From the NCBI RefSeq assembly GCF_003478335.1, contig NZ_QUFB01000010.1, positions 1 to 64,000 of the forward strand: DNA of 64,000 bases, given 5' to 3'. This stretch comes from Clostridium sp. AM49-4BH. GTDB lineage: Bacteria; Bacillota; Clostridia; Lachnospirales; Lachnospiraceae. The position numbers and the translations under genes are program-made. The notes beneath the pieces were generated by a model, which saw only the letters and a program-made list of their open reading frames with translations, searched no databases and had not been told where the DNA came from. Positions 32,318 through 38,998 of this stretch are shown here, in pieces. The first letter of the stretch is position 1, and each line of letters begins with the position of its first letter.

Positions 32318-32469
32318 GTTAATCCTCTTTTCTGTTTACAGATGTCCGCGCAGACCATTTTGCCAAATTCGCAGGTTATCTGCAATTCCGTAGTTTTTAA
32401 TACTGTTTGTGCCGCAATTGCAGCATTTCTACCAACTATATCATACTGAAAATATTATTTCAATCTTTC

Positions 32470-32497
32470 ACTCCTGACTGACAAGAGGCATACAATA
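32470..32497 (+). promoter_or_regulatory. Sigma-K-like promoter before the interrupted sleC-like gene
   Basis: AC (32470-32471), 17 bp, then CATACAATA (32489-32497) matches the late mother-cell consensus AC-N17-CATANNNTA. It lies 48 bp before the ATG. The dpaA promoter in this window has the same geometry. A TGTGATT/AATCACA hairpin follows in the leader. Confidence 0.6.
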
Positions 32498-32544
32498 ATC
32501 CAAAACTATGTGTGATTTTTAAAGAATCACAGAAATGAGGTTCT

Positions 32545-33040
32545 ATGTCTCACGATCTATATGCAGCAAAAGATATGCCGGATAAAGGTTTTTTTCAGGC
32601 AAATATCACATCTCGCCGAACCTCCAGACCGATTGCCGGAGCCAAGATACAGATCCGTAATATCAATGATGCAAACGATATAATTGAAGAAACCGAAACA
32701 AACAGTGCCGGCAAAAGTGATCTGATCACTCTGCCCGCACCGCCATTGGAGTATAGCATGATGCCGGGTACTGATCGCCCATATTCTACGTATTCGATCC
32801 AAATAACTGCTCCAAATTTTGAACCGGTAGAAATCAGCGGTGCTGAAATCTTATCCGGACAGACCGCTTTACAAAATACAACTCTGATCCCAACCCCCAA
32901 CACACCGGAAGCCAACAAAGAACTGTTTGTAATACCGCCTCATACGCTATACGAAAAATACCCGCCAAAAATTCCCGAAGAGGAAATCAAAACAGTAGAA
33001 GAAACCGGTGAAATTGTACTAAGCCGTGTCGTTATCCCCG
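32545..33040 (+). CDS. sleC: SleC-like spore cortex-lytic enzyme, N-terminal segment (interrupted gene, part 1)
   Basis: The first 165 codons plus one base of a cortex-lytic enzyme. Residues 15-110 form a carboxypeptidase-regulatory-like beta sandwich: GFFQANITSRRTSRPIAGAKI, LPAPPLEYSM, RPYSTYSIQI and VEISGAEILSGQTALQN. Then come IPPHTLYEKYPPKIPEEE and IVLSRVVIP, the usual SleC propeptide order. ATG 32545 follows TGAGG. At 33040 family similarity stops; the frame runs on for 21 unrelated codons inside the inserted element to a stop at 33102. Part 2 at 38229 restores the protein. SleC degrades cortex peptidoglycan on germination, so the gene as read cannot make an active enzyme. Confidence 0.88.
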
Positions 33041-33813
33041 CTGGTGTTCGAACAACATGCAATATGCTTATGGTTCCAAACACCTCGTACCATCGCCCCT
33101 GACCATTTATCTGTTGTCTGATCCTGCGGTATTCTTAAATTTCCGGTGCGACGATATATCTCCGGTGTCGCTATGTGATCCTCATTGAGTTTATTTGCAA
33201 TCTGCACGGAAGATTGTCCCGCTCTTCTCATATTCTGTATGTTTGTTAAAACAGAAAACGTCTGATCAGGTTCTAATACTCTCTTGCCATTCCGGTAACA
33301 GATCCGATATCCATATGGAGCCTTGGCACCGATAAAATTTCCTTGTTCCCTTTGCTGACGTTTCGCCAGCCGTACCTTGTATCCGGTATCTACTGCATAC
33401 CATTCATTTAATAAATTTTTCAATCCAACGATAAGCATCTGTTCCGTAAGTCTTGCACTGTCATAATGATCCGTCACGGTAATCACCCGCACATTATTTG
33501 CCGGGAAGAAGTATTCCAGATACCATCCCAATTGCAGATGTTCTCTCCCCAGTCTGGACAGATCCTTTGCAATAACTGCATCTAACAATCCCAAACGACA
33601 ATCCTCTATCATCTGCTGAAATTCCGGTCTTTGAAAGTTTGTTCCACTGTACCCATAGTCCACATAAACCTTTCGTTGTTGACATTCGGTATGTTGATCC
33701 AAATATTGACCAACCAGTAACAATTGATTCTCGATTGACATTTCCTCTCTCTCCGTATTTCGAACGGAAAGCCTTGCATAAATTCCTATACGCTGACACA
33801 ATATATTATTCAT
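33019..33813 (-). CDS. Serine recombinase A, proximal to the left junction
   Basis: Recombinase of 264 residues. The resolvase-type catalytic domain (about 8-145) has the nucleophilic Ser in YARLSVRN, plus DYGYSGTNFQRPEF and AKDLSRLGREH. The recombinase domain follows (NFIGAKAPYGYRI, AGQSSVQIANKLN, EIYRRTG) and ends abruptly after VRGVWNHKHI. There is no zinc ribbon or coiled coil, so it is much shorter than the usual 450-550 residues. The ATG overlaps the upstream recombinase stop (ATGA), implying coupling. The last codons lie beyond the junction in sleC sequence; in the excised circle the frame would instead continue across the joint to a TAA at 38172-38174, adding about 18 other residues. 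Confidence 0.9.
   Translation of the reverse strand: MNNILCQRIGIYARLSVRNTEREEMSIENQLLLVGQYLDQHTECQQRKVYVDYGYSGTNFQRPEFQQMIEDCRLGLLDAVIAKDLSRLGREHLQLGWYLEYFFPANNVRVITVTDHYDSARLTEQMLIVGLKNLLNEWYAVDTGYKVRLAKRQQREQGNFIGAKAPYGYRICYRNGKRVLEPDQTFSVLTNIQNMRRAGQSSVQIANKLNEDHIATPEIYRRTGNLRIPQDQTTDKWSGAMVRGVWNHKHIACCSNTSGDNDTA
33031..33052. other. Left recombination junction (attL)
   Basis: Gene sequence ending ATCCCCG (to 33040) meets element sequence containing TGGTGTTCGAA (33042-33052). That 11-mer is the inverted partner, with one mismatch, of TTCGAACTCCA at the other end (38211-38221). CCCCG is common to both junctions. Confidence 0.8.
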
Positions 33814-35003
33814 CTGCTCTGACACTTCCAAAATAAAGATTCTTCAATGATCGGCGGCACCGCCTTATCCGTACTGATCCATTCTTCAGGTGGCACTTTA
33901 CATCTCTGTGCCAGTTTATAGTTGATCTTTCTCGTTTTTCCCTGTTGAAGGATCCCAATATATATTTGATTTTTCAAAATACGTCGAACTGCGACCGGCG
34001 ACCATAGGAGCACTTTTTGTATGTCCGTATTATCGGACAGGCAAGATTGACCACTTGTTTCATTTACGTCCTTATTGTTAGTCATATTCGATAAACTATT
34101 TTGTTTTCTTCTGTCCACGAAACCGGACTTATAAGACTGCCCGCTTATCTTCTTATATACGTACGGCGATGGGATCAATAAAACATTCAAAAACGCACAA
34201 ATCTTTTCCGCGGAATGCCCTGCATTTTTCCAATGAAATATCTTTTGTACAACATCTGCCGTCTGCCTATCGACAACTAATTTGTGCTTATTGATCATCG
34301 CTTTTTGATAACCGTACGGTGCAAAAGCACCTACGTAATCTCCCTGCCTGCGTCTGGCCTCCTGACTGTTTTTGACCTTTCTGGAAATATCTCTGCAATA
34401 AGCATCATTCATCAAATTGAGGATTGGAAGCAACAACGCCTTTTCACCAAACAAAGCACTAGCACTATCGTAATGGTCCGCCACCGCAATAAAACGTATC
34501 CCCCACTGCGGGAACCACTTTTTCAAATACCATCCGGTCTGTATATACTCTCGTCCGAAACGAGATAGATCCTTGACAAGAATGCAATCTACCTTTCCCT
34601 CTCTCGCAGCCTGCAGCATTCGCTGCAACGCCGGCCTTTCAAAACTGCTTCCGCTATACCCATCGTCAACCCATTCGCCTGTAAAACAAAGCTCCGGTCT
34701 TGCCGCAATATAGTCCATCAACAGTACGCGCTGATTTCTGATGCTGTTACTCTCAATGGCGGTTCCCTCATCTTCTCTGGATAGTCTTAGATAAATGGCA
34801 CATCTCCAAATTTCCTGTTGTCTTTCGGCGATGCGGCTCTGCCATAATATCTCTCGTTCATGCCCATCATCTGTCCCTGTATACGGACACGATAAAGCAG
34901 AAGGATCCGTCTCTCTTCCCGATACGGACCCTCCTGCTGATATTTCGTCGTAATGTACCACTCTAACTGTTCCATGCTTCACTGATAACCTGCTTTCGCA
35001 CAT
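33810..35003 (-). CDS. Serine recombinase B
   Basis: Second resolvase/integrase-family recombinase. Catalytic domain: IYLRLSREDEG (nucleophilic Ser), DDGYSGSSFERPALQRML, VKDLSRFGREYIQTGWYLKKWFP (catalytic Arg), FIAVADHYDS. Recombinase domain: ISRKVKNSQEARRRQGDYVGAFAPYGYQK, SAEKICAFLN, SPVAVRRILKNQIYIGILQQGKTR; it stops soon after, at FWKCQSR, with no zinc ribbon. The N-terminus is uncertain. The frame is open from 35003 but its first 65 residues do not look like the family, and an overlapping frame (34787-34975) does look coding; a missing base near 34808 would join that frame to FWRCAIYLRLS. It lies upstream of recombinase A and overlaps it by ATGA. Confidence 0.88.
   Translation of the reverse strand: MCESRLSVKHGTVRVVHYDEISAGGSVSGRETDPSALSCPYTGTDDGHEREILWQSRIAERQQEIWRCAIYLRLSREDEGTAIESNSIRNQRVLLMDYIAARPELCFTGEWVDDGYSGSSFERPALQRMLQAAREGKVDCILVKDLSRFGREYIQTGWYLKKWFPQWGIRFIAVADHYDSASALFGEKALLLPILNLMNDAYCRDISRKVKNSQEARRRQGDYVGAFAPYGYQKAMINKHKLVVDRQTADVVQKIFHWKNAGHSAEKICAFLNVLLIPSPYVYKKISGQSYKSGFVDRRKQNSLSNMTNNKDVNETSGQSCLSDNTDIQKVLLWSPVAVRRILKNQIYIGILQQGKTRKINYKLAQRCKVPPEEWISTDKAVPPIIEESLFWKCQSR
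34787..34975 (-). CDS. Possible small ORF or true N-terminus of serine recombinase B
   Basis: A 62-codon frame starting MEQLEWYITTKYQQEGPY, helical and charged, overlapping the recombinase B frame by one base of phase. Its end (SPKDNRKFG) falls exactly where recombinase B family similarity begins. It is either a small gene ahead of the recombinase or, with one base missing in AAATTT (34808-34813), its N-terminal extension. No family was recognised and the ribosome binding site is weak. Confidence 0.4.
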   Translation of the reverse strand: MEQLEWYITTKYQQEGPYREERRILLLYRVRIQGQMMGMNERYYGRAASPKDNRKFGDVPFI

Positions 35004-35071
35004 AGCCGATTCATTTTCTAACTAAAATAATGCCGGCTGCAGTTTCTGAACTGCCATGCTTTTTTTACAGT

Positions 35072-36022
35072 CTATTCATCACTTTCTGCACGCATTCCCT
35101 CTAAAAACTTTTGTACTTCCTCCCACGCCGTTGCCGATTCCGGTATTTGTGACAATCCCATCTGAAATACATGAAACATTCCGGCATAGCACTGTGCCGT
35201 TGCCCGACCACCGCATTGCTGTACCTTCTGTGCAGCGCACTCGCCATCACTTCGCAGCATTTCAATCTCACCTACCTGTATCAACATAGGCGGCAGGCCG
35301 GAAAAATCCCCAAACAACGGCGACAGATATGGATCTTTCGGATCATGATCATCTCGATAATCTCCTCGATAGATCATACTTTCTTTCGTCCCGCCAAACA
35401 TCGGATCTTTGTCATAATTGTCCGTGTAGGAACCCCCGGACGCTGTCATGTCCAACCAGGGGGACATCAATACAAGCTTGGCCGGCATTGGTCTGTCATG
35501 TTCACGCAGCCACATGCAGAGTGCTACCGCAAGACCACCTCCCGCAGAATCGCCCGCTACAAAGATTTGATCTCCCGTATAACCCATATCCAAAATCATT
35601 TCATAAGATGCAATGGCATCTAGCAGCGCCGATGGATGAGTATGTTCCGGTGCCACCCGGTAATCCGTACTAAACACCTTCATTCCACCGCACATCATTG
35701 CATATTTATAAGCAAAACTTCGATAAATATTGCGCAATGGATTCACATATCCCCCACCGTGCAATTGGAGCAATGCGTATTTGCCGGGAATCGGAGGCTG
35801 CACCACCTCAATCGTGCAATTTGCAAGCTTTTTCCGTTCCCAAAGCACATCCTCCGGCTTACGCCATAACGGTTCCTTATCAACCAGATGCCGCTGCAAC
35901 TCTCCCATCTTGATCTTCGGTCCGATCAAACGGTTTCCTGCCGCCAGCCGAATACATTCTTTTACTAACTTTGCCTGAAACTCTGCTCTTGCACACGCTA
36001 CCTCCATATACTTTATCCCCAT
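35072..36022 (-). CDS. Alpha/beta hydrolase, hormone-sensitive-lipase-type esterase (element cargo)
   Basis: Cytoplasmic carboxylesterase-like enzyme of about 312-317 residues. The HSL-family oxyanion motif HGGGYVNPLRN, the nucleophile elbow VAGDSAGGGLAVALC, the acid region LIQVGEIEMLRSDGE and the His in GMFHVFQMG are all present. DYRVAPEHTHPSALLDA is also diagnostic. Substrate unknown. Start candidates are 36022 and 36007; the latter has GGGGA nearby. It sits between the membrane protein and recombinase B inside the element, on the same strand. A weak hairpin (GCAGTT/AACTGC) lies just after it. Confidence 0.88.
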   Translation of the reverse strand: MGIKYMEVACARAEFQAKLVKECIRLAAGNRLIGPKIKMGELQRHLVDKEPLWRKPEDVLWERKKLANCTIEVVQPPIPGKYALLQLHGGGYVNPLRNIYRSFAYKYAMMCGGMKVFSTDYRVAPEHTHPSALLDAIASYEMILDMGYTGDQIFVAGDSAGGGLAVALCMWLREHDRPMPAKLVLMSPWLDMTASGGSYTDNYDKDPMFGGTKESMIYRGDYRDDHDPKDPYLSPLFGDFSGLPPMLIQVGEIEMLRSDGECAAQKVQQCGGRATAQCYAGMFHVFQMGLSQIPESATAWEEVQKFLEGMRAESDE

Positions 36023-36107
36023 CCGGGAATCATAATCTTTCCACTTTAACCGTAAATTGTCACTGCTTTATCCTAACACCACCCATACGCAGATCGTTTC
36101 GCATCCT

Positions 36108-36782
36108 TTATATATAAAAACGCCTTCGCAGCTCACTCTTCGCCTTGCGGGAACCGGCAAGTACCGCAACACCAAACAACACAAGGGTAACTAACAGTAC
36201 GATCCAAGCAAGCAGCGGATTTCCTTCTTTGGCAAAAATACCAATGCAAAGATTGATCACTGCTAACGCAATAGCATACACCTGTGTCGTCAGATAACTC
36301 GTCCAATTAGTGCGATTAATCAGCATTCCTCCACCCAAAAACAGATCCAGCACTAATATGCTGCATGACATACCATACTGTACTGACCAGCCATGAAAAC
36401 CAAGCCCTGCATCTAATGAGAGCAAAAATAAAATCGTTGCAAATGTCTGAATAAACAGCTTGCGAATATGGCTTTTATTCCATGCTGTAAGATAGTGCAT
36501 CGAAAAAATTCCATACGCAAAAACCACTGCTGTCACAAAAGACCAGCGATGTCCCGCATCCAAATAATAATTCAACACAAAGAGTAACACCTGTATTAAG
36601 ATCAAAGCAAACGTAAAGGACCATACGATACGCTTTGCCATACGCGTTTTGTGGAATATTGCCGGATACATATTAACCAATACATTGTCAGATTCTTTGG
36701 TCAACACCCGGCCACAAAACAAACAGGTTTTTGCATTATCCGCAATCCTAAGACGACAATTTTTACATATTCGATCACTCAT
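36108..36782 (-). CDS. Membrane protein with N-terminal zinc-ribbon-like motif (element cargo)
   Basis: 224 residues. It starts MSDRICKNCRLRIADNAKTCLFCGR, with two CxxC pairs suggesting a small zinc ribbon. About six hydrophobic segments follow between residues 50 and 215 (WSFTFALILIQVLLFVL, FVTAVVFAYGIFSMHYL and others), ending in a basic tail. It resembles DUF6320-type proteins seen beside acyltransferase genes in Clostridia, but that assignment is from memory of the domain layout and is tentative. Its start overlaps the end of the condensation-domain gene by 8 bp and is preceded by GGGGTG, so coupling is likely. Confidence 0.6.
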   Translation of the reverse strand: MSDRICKNCRLRIADNAKTCLFCGRVLTKESDNVLVNMYPAIFHKTRMAKRIVWSFTFALILIQVLLFVLNYYLDAGHRWSFVTAVVFAYGIFSMHYLTAWNKSHIRKLFIQTFATILFLLSLDAGLGFHGWSVQYGMSCSILVLDLFLGGGMLINRTNWTSYLTTQVYAIALAVINLCIGIFAKEGNPLLAWIVLLVTLVLFGVAVLAGSRKAKSELRRRFYI

Positions 36783-38166
36783 AATACACCCCATTACTTT
36801 CTATCGTAACTTCAATACCATCTTCAACTAATTTCCGGAAAAATCGTCGCTGTATCGATACATCACGCAGCGTTGAACTGAAATTTAACACTAATTCATC
36901 CCGATAAGAACAAAGCAGCGCTTTAATATGCTGTCCTGTTGACATAGCGATCATTCCATGAAATTTTTCTATGAAAGGCTCGTATTCTTTCTGTACCTGA
37001 AAGGCTCCAATATTCGTAAGCGTACTCGTATTCGCTCTAGCCGAAGAACGATATACAAAACGCATAGCAAGCACTTTAATAAACATTGGAACTGAGCGCA
37101 GAAAAATGTTTTTCTGATTGGACACATTATAGGAAAACAATTCTTCCAAATGTTCTTTTGTGATCTGCTCACGCAGACTCATTGTCACCAATTCCAAAAT
37201 CCTGTCAAATGATTCCCCGGTCCGATCGGCTGCATATACCGCACTGACCATGACGAAAAAATTTCTCGTTGTTACAGACTCAAAATACGGTCTCAAATTC
37301 ACAGGAACCGCTACCGCGATCGGACGGCTTGACGGGCTCTCCTTAAGATACTCCTTGTATATGCTGTAAATAAATACAGCCGTCATATATTCATTGATAC
37401 TGACGTCCCTCTGATGACAAACCTGTTTCACTGCAGAAAGAGACATACTTCCATGGATCACACCAAGTTCTCCGGTCGGAAGATGTTCTCCCTTAACCTC
37501 TACGGCACGTGCTGTTTTATAACCCTTGTTATGACTTTTCTTATAATTTTTGACATAGCTGTCCTCCGTGCTTAAAGACGTCAGATCCGATAAACCTTTC
37601 TGTCCGCCGAAGTCCGTCTCAGGATGTGCCAATCGCAAATAACAATACGTTAATTCCCGCAAAAAATTAACGGCTCCCATACCATCTGCCAACACATGAA
37701 ATACCTCCAAATTAATGCGGTTGCGATAATAACTCACTCGAAACAAATAGCCGTTATTTTCATAGGGTTCAATATAACTGCAAGGATATTTATCCTCTAA
37801 TTCCACCAATGGCGGTGCCTTATAATTTGTCTCAAAATAATTCCAAAACAATCCTTTGCGCATACGTACCCGAAAGGTATCAAACACCGGAAGTACTTCA
37901 TCCAGTGCCTGCTGCAATAAATCCCGTTCAACATGATCCGACAGCGTCACGCTGATCCGATACACGTTAGTCATATTCTGCGTTGCAATAGCCGGAAAAA
38001 GGTTGGCGGTATTATCAAGTCGTTCCCAGGCGGCTACTTCTCTTTTTTTGCGCCGGCTGACATTTTGCTGTTTTTCAAGCTGTTGTCTGTTTTTACGCCG
38101 TTTTTTCCGCTTCCTTTTCTCCTGCTTCCACCGCTCTTTGCCACGATTACGATCGCGTTCACTCAT
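36775..38166 (-). CDS. Condensation-domain/alcohol acetyltransferase-like acyltransferase (element cargo)
   Basis: 463-residue protein with the chloramphenicol-acetyltransferase/condensation fold. The active-site motif is LEVFHVLADGMGAVNFLREL (HxxxDG). It also has VAVPVNLRPYFES, TLTNIGAF and a Lys/Arg-rich first 50 residues that may contact membrane or nucleic acid. Such enzymes acylate an alcohol, amine or carrier-bound substrate; the substrate is unknown. The start is ATG 38166, nine bases after AAGGAG; an open frame upstream crosses the element end. It is the first cargo gene, its ribosome site lies 55 bp inside the right end, and it overlaps the membrane protein gene. Confidence 0.78.
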   Translation of the reverse strand: MSERDRNRGKERWKQEKRKRKKRRKNRQQLEKQQNVSRRKKREVAAWERLDNTANLFPAIATQNMTNVYRISVTLSDHVERDLLQQALDEVLPVFDTFRVRMRKGLFWNYFETNYKAPPLVELEDKYPCSYIEPYENNGYLFRVSYYRNRINLEVFHVLADGMGAVNFLRELTYCYLRLAHPETDFGGQKGLSDLTSLSTEDSYVKNYKKSHNKGYKTARAVEVKGEHLPTGELGVIHGSMSLSAVKQVCHQRDVSINEYMTAVFIYSIYKEYLKESPSSRPIAVAVPVNLRPYFESVTTRNFFVMVSAVYAADRTGESFDRILELVTMSLREQITKEHLEELFSYNVSNQKNIFLRSVPMFIKVLAMRFVYRSSARANTSTLTNIGAFQVQKEYEPFIEKFHGMIAMSTGQHIKALLCSYRDELVLNFSSTLRDVSIQRRFFRKLVEDGIEVTIESNGVYYE

Positions 38167-38210
38167 ACTGTTACTCCTTACCTGTAAGACGCCGGGTAAC
38201 GAAAGCTGTC

Positions 38211-38240
38211 TTCGAACTCCATCCCCCGAATATATAATCG
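38211..38240. other. Right recombination junction (attR)
   Basis: Element sequence with TTCGAACTCCA (38211-38221) and TCCCCCG runs into sleC-like sequence from 38229. The arm mirrors TGGTGTTCGAA at 33042-33052. The C run is five here and four at the left junction. Confidence 0.8.
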
Positions 38241-38998
38241 TCCATGATGGACCACCATCGGACTCCCGCGCCAAAAACTATTATGTCAAATATAAAGATT
38301 ATATAAAAAATGTTGCCTCCAGTGAAATCTATGCCACTTGGCCGGAGGAAACACTGATTGCTAATATTCTTGCCATTCAGTCCATTACGCTCAACCGCGT
38401 ATATACCGAATGGTACCGCAATAAAAACTATGATTTTACGATCACATCCTCTACTGCCTATGATCAAAAATGGATCTCCGGACGCAATATTTATGCTTCC
38501 ATATCACAAACTGTAGATTCCATTTTTTCCAATTATCTGGCACGGCCTAATATTACACAGCCGATCTTTACACAATACTGTGACGGACGTCAAGTATCCT
38601 GTCCTAACTGGATGCGGCAGTGGGAATCCAAAACGCTTGGTGACCGCGGCTACTCTGCCATCGAAATACTACGCTATTTCTACGGTAATTCCATGTACAT
38701 CGCTTCCTCAGAGGAAATTTCCGGAGTGCCATCTTCCTGGCCGGGCTCAGATCTGACGATCGGCAGCAGCGGTCAAAAAGTACGCCAGCTGCAGCAACAG
38801 CTTAACACGATCGCCGGTGCTTACCCACTGATCCCAAAACTTGCTGTAGATGGTATTTACGGAAAAAAGACAGCGGAAGCAGTCAAAACCTTTCAACAGA
38901 TCTTTAACCTTCCGGCAACAGGCGTAACTGACTATCCGACCTGGTATAAAATCAGCGAGATTTATGTTGGCGTAAGCCGTATTGCTGAACTGATGTGA
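38229..38998 (+). CDS. sleC: SleC-like spore cortex-lytic enzyme, C-terminal segment (interrupted gene, part 2)
   Basis: Supplies the remaining 256 codons of the enzyme. It opens with EYIIVHDGPPSDSRAKNYYV, continuing VVIP of part 1. Residues to about 190 of this segment form the SpoIID/LytB-like lytic region: NVASSEIYATWPEETL, TLNRVYTEWYRNKNYDF, TSSTAYDQ, TQYCDGRQVSCPNW. A peptidoglycan-binding domain ends it (LTIGSSGQKVRQLQQQLN, DGIYGKKTAEAVKTFQQIF, DYPTWYKIS). No start codon or ribosome site precedes it in this arrangement; the frame is open upstream only through element sequence. The stop directly abuts the convergent aminopeptidase stop. There is no visible decay, which argues for a gene still under selection. 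Confidence 0.9.

Follow-up and report, generated by a model that had tools for sequence, protein, structure and literature searches.

Introduction

Programmed removal of DNA during sporulation is known for sigK, spsM, spoVFB, gerE and yabG (PMC10747680), and skin, SPbeta in spsM, vfbin, gin and yin are known elements of this kind (PMC5595907, PMC10747680, PMC5025042). We analyzed one 64,000-nucleotide stretch of DNA from Clostridium sp. AM49-4BH, a member of Lachnospiraceae (contig NZ_QUFB01000010.1, positions 1 to 64,000; the whole stretch is called the window), in which sleC, the gene of a spore cortex-lytic enzyme, is interrupted by one element that encodes two serine recombinases, RecA and RecB. 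Judged from sequence comparison, the interruption most likely works as a developmental intervening element, like skin and gin, and its excision is predicted.

Like the sleC element, gin in gerE of Bacillus cereus ATCC10987 is a non-phage element in a mother-cell gene; it has several serine recombinase genes, a short core, an inverted repeat at the att site and a recombinase pair, girAB, beside a third recombinase (PMC5595907). Different from the sleC element, gin interrupts another gene, and its excision by GirC with GirX has been shown (PMC5595907); the only recombinases found in the sleC element are two short ones without zinc ribbon, and it has a host operon as cargo. Skin, which splits sigK in B. 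subtilis and C. difficile, shares the serine recombinase, the precise in-frame removal and the mother-cell target gene, whereas it is phage-like and its excision has been shown (PMC5025042, PMC10747680). As a sigma-K target, sleC stands one step later than sigK, which is also split in the same genus. Yin likewise interrupts a sigma-K-dependent, germination-related gene, yabG of C. botulinum, and both of its forms have been seen; however, yin is prophage-like and is reported from no other strain or species (PMC10747680), whereas sleC is split by the same element in 14 genomes. CcrA and CcrB of the staphylococcal cassettes are also two adjacent serine recombinases (PMC5595907). RecA and RecB both have CcrB as their best NCBIfam match, but with 92 and 59 bits, respectively, the scores are far below the curated cut-off of 900, and target and cargo are different.

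Results

Precise joining of the two sleC halves

When exon 1 and exon 2 (Table 1) are joined, the product is 1266 nt in length; it is in-frame, encodes 421 residues plus the stop codon and contains no internal stop. The junction cuts codon 166 (GAA) itself, between G and AA. CCCCG is common to both flanks, its two copies are offset by exactly 5,188 nt, and removal at this short direct repeat gives back the exact sleC reading frame, as is characteristic of intervening elements in sporulation genes. The second-best in-frame join of the window halves has one residue too many, and a crossover at the ATCCCC register (offset 5,187) was ruled out, as it shifts the frame.

The joined product was compared with the best 120 database hits to the window SleC. 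It shows 6 differences from protein P0002 over 421/421 residues (98.6% identity); P0002 matches the solved pre-pro form of SleC (9h68) with an E value of 2e-127, therefore the joined protein of the window is SleC. The preliminary description of this DNA, made from the letters alone, had taken the halves as one SleC-like protein with a precise 421-residue join, and this is borne out. Near-identical database proteins were found for the joined products of 4 of the 29 split rows, the other three being G415 (P0031, 100%), G403 (P0021, 99.8%) and G401 (P0053, 99.5%); G415 and G403 are D-type. One further hit, P0005, is a 410-residue SleC whose later part is that of the window and whose start comes from another allele, by recombination or as an assembly chimera; P0005–P0007 looked like two-allele chimeras (P0005 alone was read) and were left unused.

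The lytic and binding domains of SleC are encoded by the 3′ part of the gene. While interrupted, this part lacks its own start codon and promoter, and the interrupted gene should for this reason yield no enzyme. Both forms of the locus may be represented in the G409 assembly. Contig C6 ends 18 codons past the joined sleC junction, contig C78 carries the interrupted right junction, and the two share exactly 58 nt from the core on. These contigs match the assembly fork that would be expected if reads of both forms were present.

Table 1. Features of the sleC locus in the window
Feature	Position	Strand	Remarks
Predicted sigma-K-type promoter of sleC	32469..32498	+	CAC - 17 nt - CATACAATAA
sleC exon 1	32545..33040	+	codons 1-165 and first base of codon 166
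RecB, short serine recombinase	33019..33813	-	PF00239, part of PF07508 under cut-off, no zinc ribbon
Left copy of recombination core CCCCG (in attL)	33036..33040	.	
Intervening element, 5,188 bp	33041..38228	.	missing from joined protein P0002
Left arm of predicted attP	33041..33053	.	CTGGTGTTCGAAC; inverted repeat with right arm
RecA, serine recombinase	33810..35003	-	PF00239 and PF07508 (nearly whole), no zinc ribbon
Small open reading frame before RecA, 62 residues	34787..34975	-	candidate recombination directionality factor
Alpha/beta hydrolase (ABH), cargo operon	35072..36022	-	PF07859
DUF6320 protein, cargo operon	36108..36794	-	PF19845
Alcohol acetyltransferase-like protein (AAT), cargo operon	36775..38166	-	PF07247
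Right arm of predicted attP	38211..38223	.	TTCGAACTCCATC; inverted repeat with left arm
Right copy of core CCCCG (in attR)	38224..38228	.	
sleC exon 2	38229..38998	+	rest of codon 166 to stop; SpoIID-like and peptidoglycan-binding domains

The same element in related genomes

The element at codon 165 (A type) has 14 carriers: the window, G001, G002, G194, G288, G399, G400, G401, G408, G409, G410, G417, G420 and G426. They came from the genus of G001, the family sample (G288), the genus of G288 (which adds G426) and one locus scan (L002, from G002); for G410 the left junction alone was seen. The split at the same codon in related genomes, which the preliminary description had proposed to look for, is thus found in 13 other genomes. 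All five genes (RecA, RecB, ABH, DUF6320 and AAT) are present in 12 of the 14 carriers, or 11 of 13 without the window. A search of 28 genomes with the first ∼230 residues of RecA gave 10 matches with at least 50% identity and an open frame of at most 400 residues, 8 of them at a split sleC.

The identity matrices of RecA, RecB and AAT give the same clades, namely window/G001/G409, G417/G401/G408 and G002/G288; G400 joins the second clade by RecB and AAT (its RecA row had caught RecB and was ignored), and G410 joins it by RecA and RecB. The RecA tree, built without G400 and G194, agrees with these clades, with weak deep branches. By these comparisons, recombinases and cargo have diverged together.

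Another complete sleC in the genome had been named in advance as evidence against a developmental role. Among the relatives with the A type, no sleC match besides the split gene was found in 11 of 13 genomes. The two exceptions are G002, where a second sleC is complete, and G420, where more split copies accompany the main one. Scanning genome contigs with the recombinase alignment was given up, since its motifs are too general and both sleC halves were present at 2 of 80 loci. At one locus, L025 (8928 bp), a sleC 5′ part adjoins a RecB relative.

Interruption of sleC at other codons

In the family of G001 (Lachnospiraceae, 397 genomes), 262 genomes match SleC and 255 do so beyond weak hits; the 7 with weak matches only (E above 1e-6) were left out. 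The main sleC is in two pieces in at least 27 of the 255 genomes, at codons ∼165 (3), ∼228 (7) and ∼294 (17). Both pieces lie on one contig in 15 of the 27, and among the 12 counted two-contig cases G194 alone was read for the element. G134, G230, G053, G044, G145, G165, G206, G076, G078, G153 and G207 are not in this count, nor are G100, G132, G068, G318, G223 and G204 (one half, contig edges or unclear); G207 had looked split, and the insertion was not seen on inspection. In G166, the second sleC copy is split. The genus of G001 comprises 28 genomes with 24 real sleC matches (G424 was left out), 9 unsplit and 15 split or partial; the splits are at codons 165 (10), ∼190 (4, of which G411 is known from its 3′ half only) and 228 (G423, for which the 5′ half alone was seen).

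The halves could be joined in-frame at 28 of the 31 junctions examined. As the procedure accepted only in-frame, stop-free joins with a core of at least 2 nt, the in-frame outcome alone is weak; the weight lies in the long cores, the recurring position and the joined products without lost residues. The junction cores are CCCC(G) at codon 165 (10 of 10 resolved, 12 tried), ACGGAGTGGTA-like at 228, AAAGACTATA-like at 190 and TGACC at 294. Four joins on 2-bp cores, those of G227, G371 and G097 at codon 294 and of the second copy in G317, are less certain. No join was obtained for G408 (late stop) or G321 (disturbed 3′ half), and the output for G409 was no real join.

The elements at codons 228 and 294 encode full-length serine recombinases, and a zinc ribbon was matched in 7 of the 7 scanned (PF13408, E <= 0.001, with two scoring below the Pfam cut-off); at codon 190, both of the recombinases scanned are Tn916-like tyrosine integrases. 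Chance inactivation can hardly account for four types of element at four codons. The sleC gene of G420 is cut twice, by the A element at codon 165 and by another element at codon 228; its exons of 495, 188 and 577 nt, the third on another contig, join into one complete reading frame. The same genome has two further sleC-like 5′ parts (L233 and L234), each ending at ∼codon 232 beside a recombinase-like open reading frame of ∼565 residues as read by eye. From these sequences, G420 may hold three interrupted sleC genes.

Constraint on the interrupted gene

For exon 2, the median ratio of nonsynonymous to synonymous divergence (dN/dS) is 0.032 between A-split genes (10 copies, with 13 of 45 pairs unsaturated) versus 0.060 in intact genes (12 of 28 pairs, 8 genes); for exon 1, the medians are 0.164 and 0.128, respectively. 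These ratios are rough, most synonymous distances being saturated, and dS is 1.1–1.4 in the closest A–A pairs. G408, G410, G420 and G426 are outside this set, from which copies without a clean join were excluded. Although unexpressed while interrupted, exon 2 is thus under strong purifying selection and, in the measured copies, as constrained as in uninterrupted sleC. Selection appears to keep both gene halves functional in the 10 of 14 A carriers measured, with G408, G410 and, at codon 228, G321 as exceptions. Accumulating mutations in both halves, another sign that would speak against a developmental role, are accordingly found in part: G408, G321 and G410 are damaged, and exon 2 is constrained in the 10 measured copies. 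All in all, the splitting of sleC is neither recent nor isolated.

ATCCCC is present at 10 of 10 resolved A junctions versus 2 of 33 intact genes (the site-A codons could be read in 33 of 40 intact loci, the motif being missing in 7); in part, this enrichment arises because insertion requires a matching core. In G410, the 5′ half and the A element lie on one contig, and dut followed by sleC codons 206–421 on another (L186/L187); this arrangement may reflect a deletion or mixed strains.

Recombinases and attachment sites

All genes inside the segment, AAT, DUF6320, ABH, the small open reading frame, RecA and RecB, lie on the minus strand. The last codons of RecB fall within sleC, and its ATG overlaps the stop codon of RecA (ATGA). 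The preliminary description had spoken of a serine-recombinase element; recombinase coding stands, with two serine recombinases in place of one. Both contain the resolvase catalytic domain PF00239. The zinc ribbon PF13408 was not found in RecA or RecB, even at E up to 5, and neither protein has the large-serine-recombinase layout of PF07508 plus zinc ribbon. The 62-residue open reading frame has no Pfam or NCBIfam match; of 10 other A elements examined, 7 have a small open reading frame at the same position, and these frames are of two kinds, which may or may not be related.

The arms of 10 A elements are symmetric. Their best 12-bp inverted match averages 9.9, compared to 5.8 ± 0.3 for shuffled arms (1000 shuffles treated alike, highest 6.9). 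The symmetry is weakest in G399 (7), and the arms of G288 are changed in matching fashion, ACAGCAG/CTGCTGT versus the usual ACACCAG/CTGGTGT. The locus therefore combines site-specific recombinases with an inverted-repeat att site, as intervening elements of sporulation genes do. No phage gene was found among the five element genes scanned. In viral contigs, there were no RecA relatives above 43%, the attP pattern was absent and no copy of the element was seen.

RecB crosses the left att site (33019–33040); in the circle form it would gain another tail (38170–38228), with 276 residues from the ATG. By sequence, this tail would end at the cargo operon's ribosome site, immediately ahead of the acetyltransferase start. 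The idea that RecB has a conserved form specific to the circle was dropped as a general mechanism, since RecB of G001 stops before the att site.

Cargo operon

In the genus of G001, 24 of the 28 genomes have a single copy of AAT. Where sleC is unsplit in G412, G421 (L198 and L199, respectively), G402 and G407, the ABH-DUF6320-AAT operon follows it directly on the downstream side, as it also does in three codon-190 genomes, G403, G422 and G411. In the A carriers, the operon is inside the element and the 3′ part of sleC takes the downstream place. Given these positions, the cargo is not foreign, and the operon was taken into the element or returned from it. The gene next after sleC is the M18 gene in G413, G414 and G405; other genes take this place in G418 and G419. 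By eye, sleC in the window is preceded by ilvD, leuB, deoC and dut and followed by genes for an M18 aminopeptidase and a large carbohydrate enzyme.

In the sleC tree, the A rows are cleanly separated from the D rows. G412 and G421 are placed among the A carriers and unsplit rows are uncounted, so that either a single origin with losses or several origins may account for the A arrangement.

Link to sporulation

The motif CATANNNT occurs within 170 nt upstream of sleC in 19 of 22 genes, compared to 6.5 ± 2.1 in letter shuffles; the upstream AC of the sigma-K-type box was seen by eye and is not part of this count. A modest ribosome site (GAGG), also seen by eye, precedes the 5′ half, which keeps a predicted promoter and a ribosome site as initially described. 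In C. difficile, sleC belongs to the sigma-K regulon (PMC3789822). By homology of the gene and by its sigma-K-type box, the element is located in a sporulation/germination gene.

We found spoIVA in 39 of 40 split or half-only genomes, in 20 of 20 intact ones and in 1 of the 20 tested out of 135 without sleC match. It is kept in 11 of the 12 A-type genomes tested; it was not seen in G417, and in G407 (intact) the match is in two pieces under the cut-off. Before RecA of other elements there are scattered sporulation-type boxes, for which no comparison to chance was made.

SigK is split near model position 110, on one contig, in G401, G402, G403, G410, G420 and G422 (L228–L232, L236). As judged without family search, every sigK gap has a serine-recombinase-like start, YARKSK, and an open reading frame of 541–598 residues; the gaps of G401 and G410 also contain, by eye, open reading frames resembling nucleoside-metabolism genes. 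Split sleC is present in 5 of these 6 genomes.

Discussion

The proposal that the interruption is a developmental element gains support from the same split in 13 other genomes, the co-divergence of recombinases and cargo, the constraint on exon 2, the symmetric arms and the three other element types. One alternative is ordinary site-specific insertion, in which a conserved attachment sequence in sleC is hit repeatedly and the gene is simply off in carriers. Conserved coding sequence is often used by integrases, and the few damaged copies and the full second sleC of G002 fit this explanation; so does the uninterrupted sleC of 9 of the 24 genus genomes (G405 with stops flagged in the match), which makes the element dispensable and weighs against a developmental role. 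However, a dead 3′ half should drift, yet its dN/dS is ∼0.03 over A–A pairs. Matching cores at both ends and symmetric arms are kept in long-diverged copies, recombinases and cargo co-diverge, and most A-type genomes lack another sleC match and keep spoIVA. We consider simple insertion quite improbable. The recent, unregulated insertion inactivating sleC, which had been offered at the outset as the alternative, is also less favored, the interruption being old and recurrent and the 3′ half constrained.

The joined and interrupted forms in the G409 assembly and the joined alleles nearly identical to split ones would also suit a heritable switch, in which low-rate excision and re-insertion in growing cells (phase variation or active lysogeny) give mixed populations of germination-ready and silent cells; yin in C. 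botulinum yabG is both integrated and circular in pure culture (PMC10747680). Such a switch is unlikely, as an operon whose acetyltransferase is mostly single-copy would be lost if the circle disappeared from the germ line, and sleC is predicted to be under mother-cell sigma-K, where excision costs the germ line nothing. The relatives are known as assemblies, many of them fragmented, which leaves room for an artefact or chimera at a repeated sequence; this is hardly credible, since the same five genes lie between the sleC halves on single contigs in 8 genomes including the window, and in G399 an A element with one recombinase lies inside a 1.5-Mb contig.

Besides the uninterrupted genes and the fragmented assemblies, several observations weigh against a developmental element. 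The joined form was seen in 1 of the 12 A-type assemblies searched and in none of the other 11, and mixed strains lacking the element could explain G409 and the near-identical joined proteins equally well. Homology of the window RecA starts near 34805, and no in-frame ATG, GTG or TTG is found within the 51 codons before this conserved part, the closest in-frame start codons being at least 52 codons upstream; the 82 nt before RecA contain no sporulation-type box. G399 holds one recombinase at the locus, and G194 only partial RecA and RecB. Away from sleC, there are two partial, short RecA-like genes (G194 C19 and G401 C51) and two long recombinases 50–51% like RecA (G400 C193 and G403 C213); by these matches, the RecA/RecB pair is not restricted to sleC in a strict sense. 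A stop near the C-terminus is present in G408, the 3′ half of G321 is disturbed, and the 3′ part in G410 comprises codons 206–421 only. The A arrangement also needs 3 changes on the AAT tree.

If the interruption is a developmental element, the RecA/RecB pair would cut out the segment at the CCCCG core. RecA and RecB, whose genes overlap, would act together, and the small open reading frame before RecA may set the direction of recombination. Excision would take place in the mother cell during sporulation and rebuild a complete sleC for the spore; because excision would be confined to the terminal mother cell, the germ line would keep the element. In the excised circle, RecB would swap its sleC-encoded tail for another. 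With moderate confidence, we go further and propose that sleC holds DNA introns that can be removed, at up to four codons, and that sigK first and then sleC would be rebuilt by successive mother-cell excisions; the codon-165 element would be old and largely inherited with the locus, have its own recombinase pair and have taken in a single-copy host operon. The mother cell would then lose the cargo operon as a circle.

Among the items listed by a literature search without subscription papers and preprints, no title or abstract dealt with an interrupted sleC. The target gene, its interruption at several sites and the double interruption are new, as are a pair of compact recombinases that lack the zinc ribbon and the presence of a core host operon in such an element; the pair may serve as a recombination tool. 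Within one family, four kinds of element apparently interrupt one germination gene, at four codons; affected are about a tenth of the sampled family genomes that bear sleC and, in the genus of G001, 15 of 24. If it is true that the spore-opening enzyme needs DNA to be cut first, this would be a further control point for germination, and these bacteria would offer a natural system for mobile DNA becoming a fixed part of a developmental programme.

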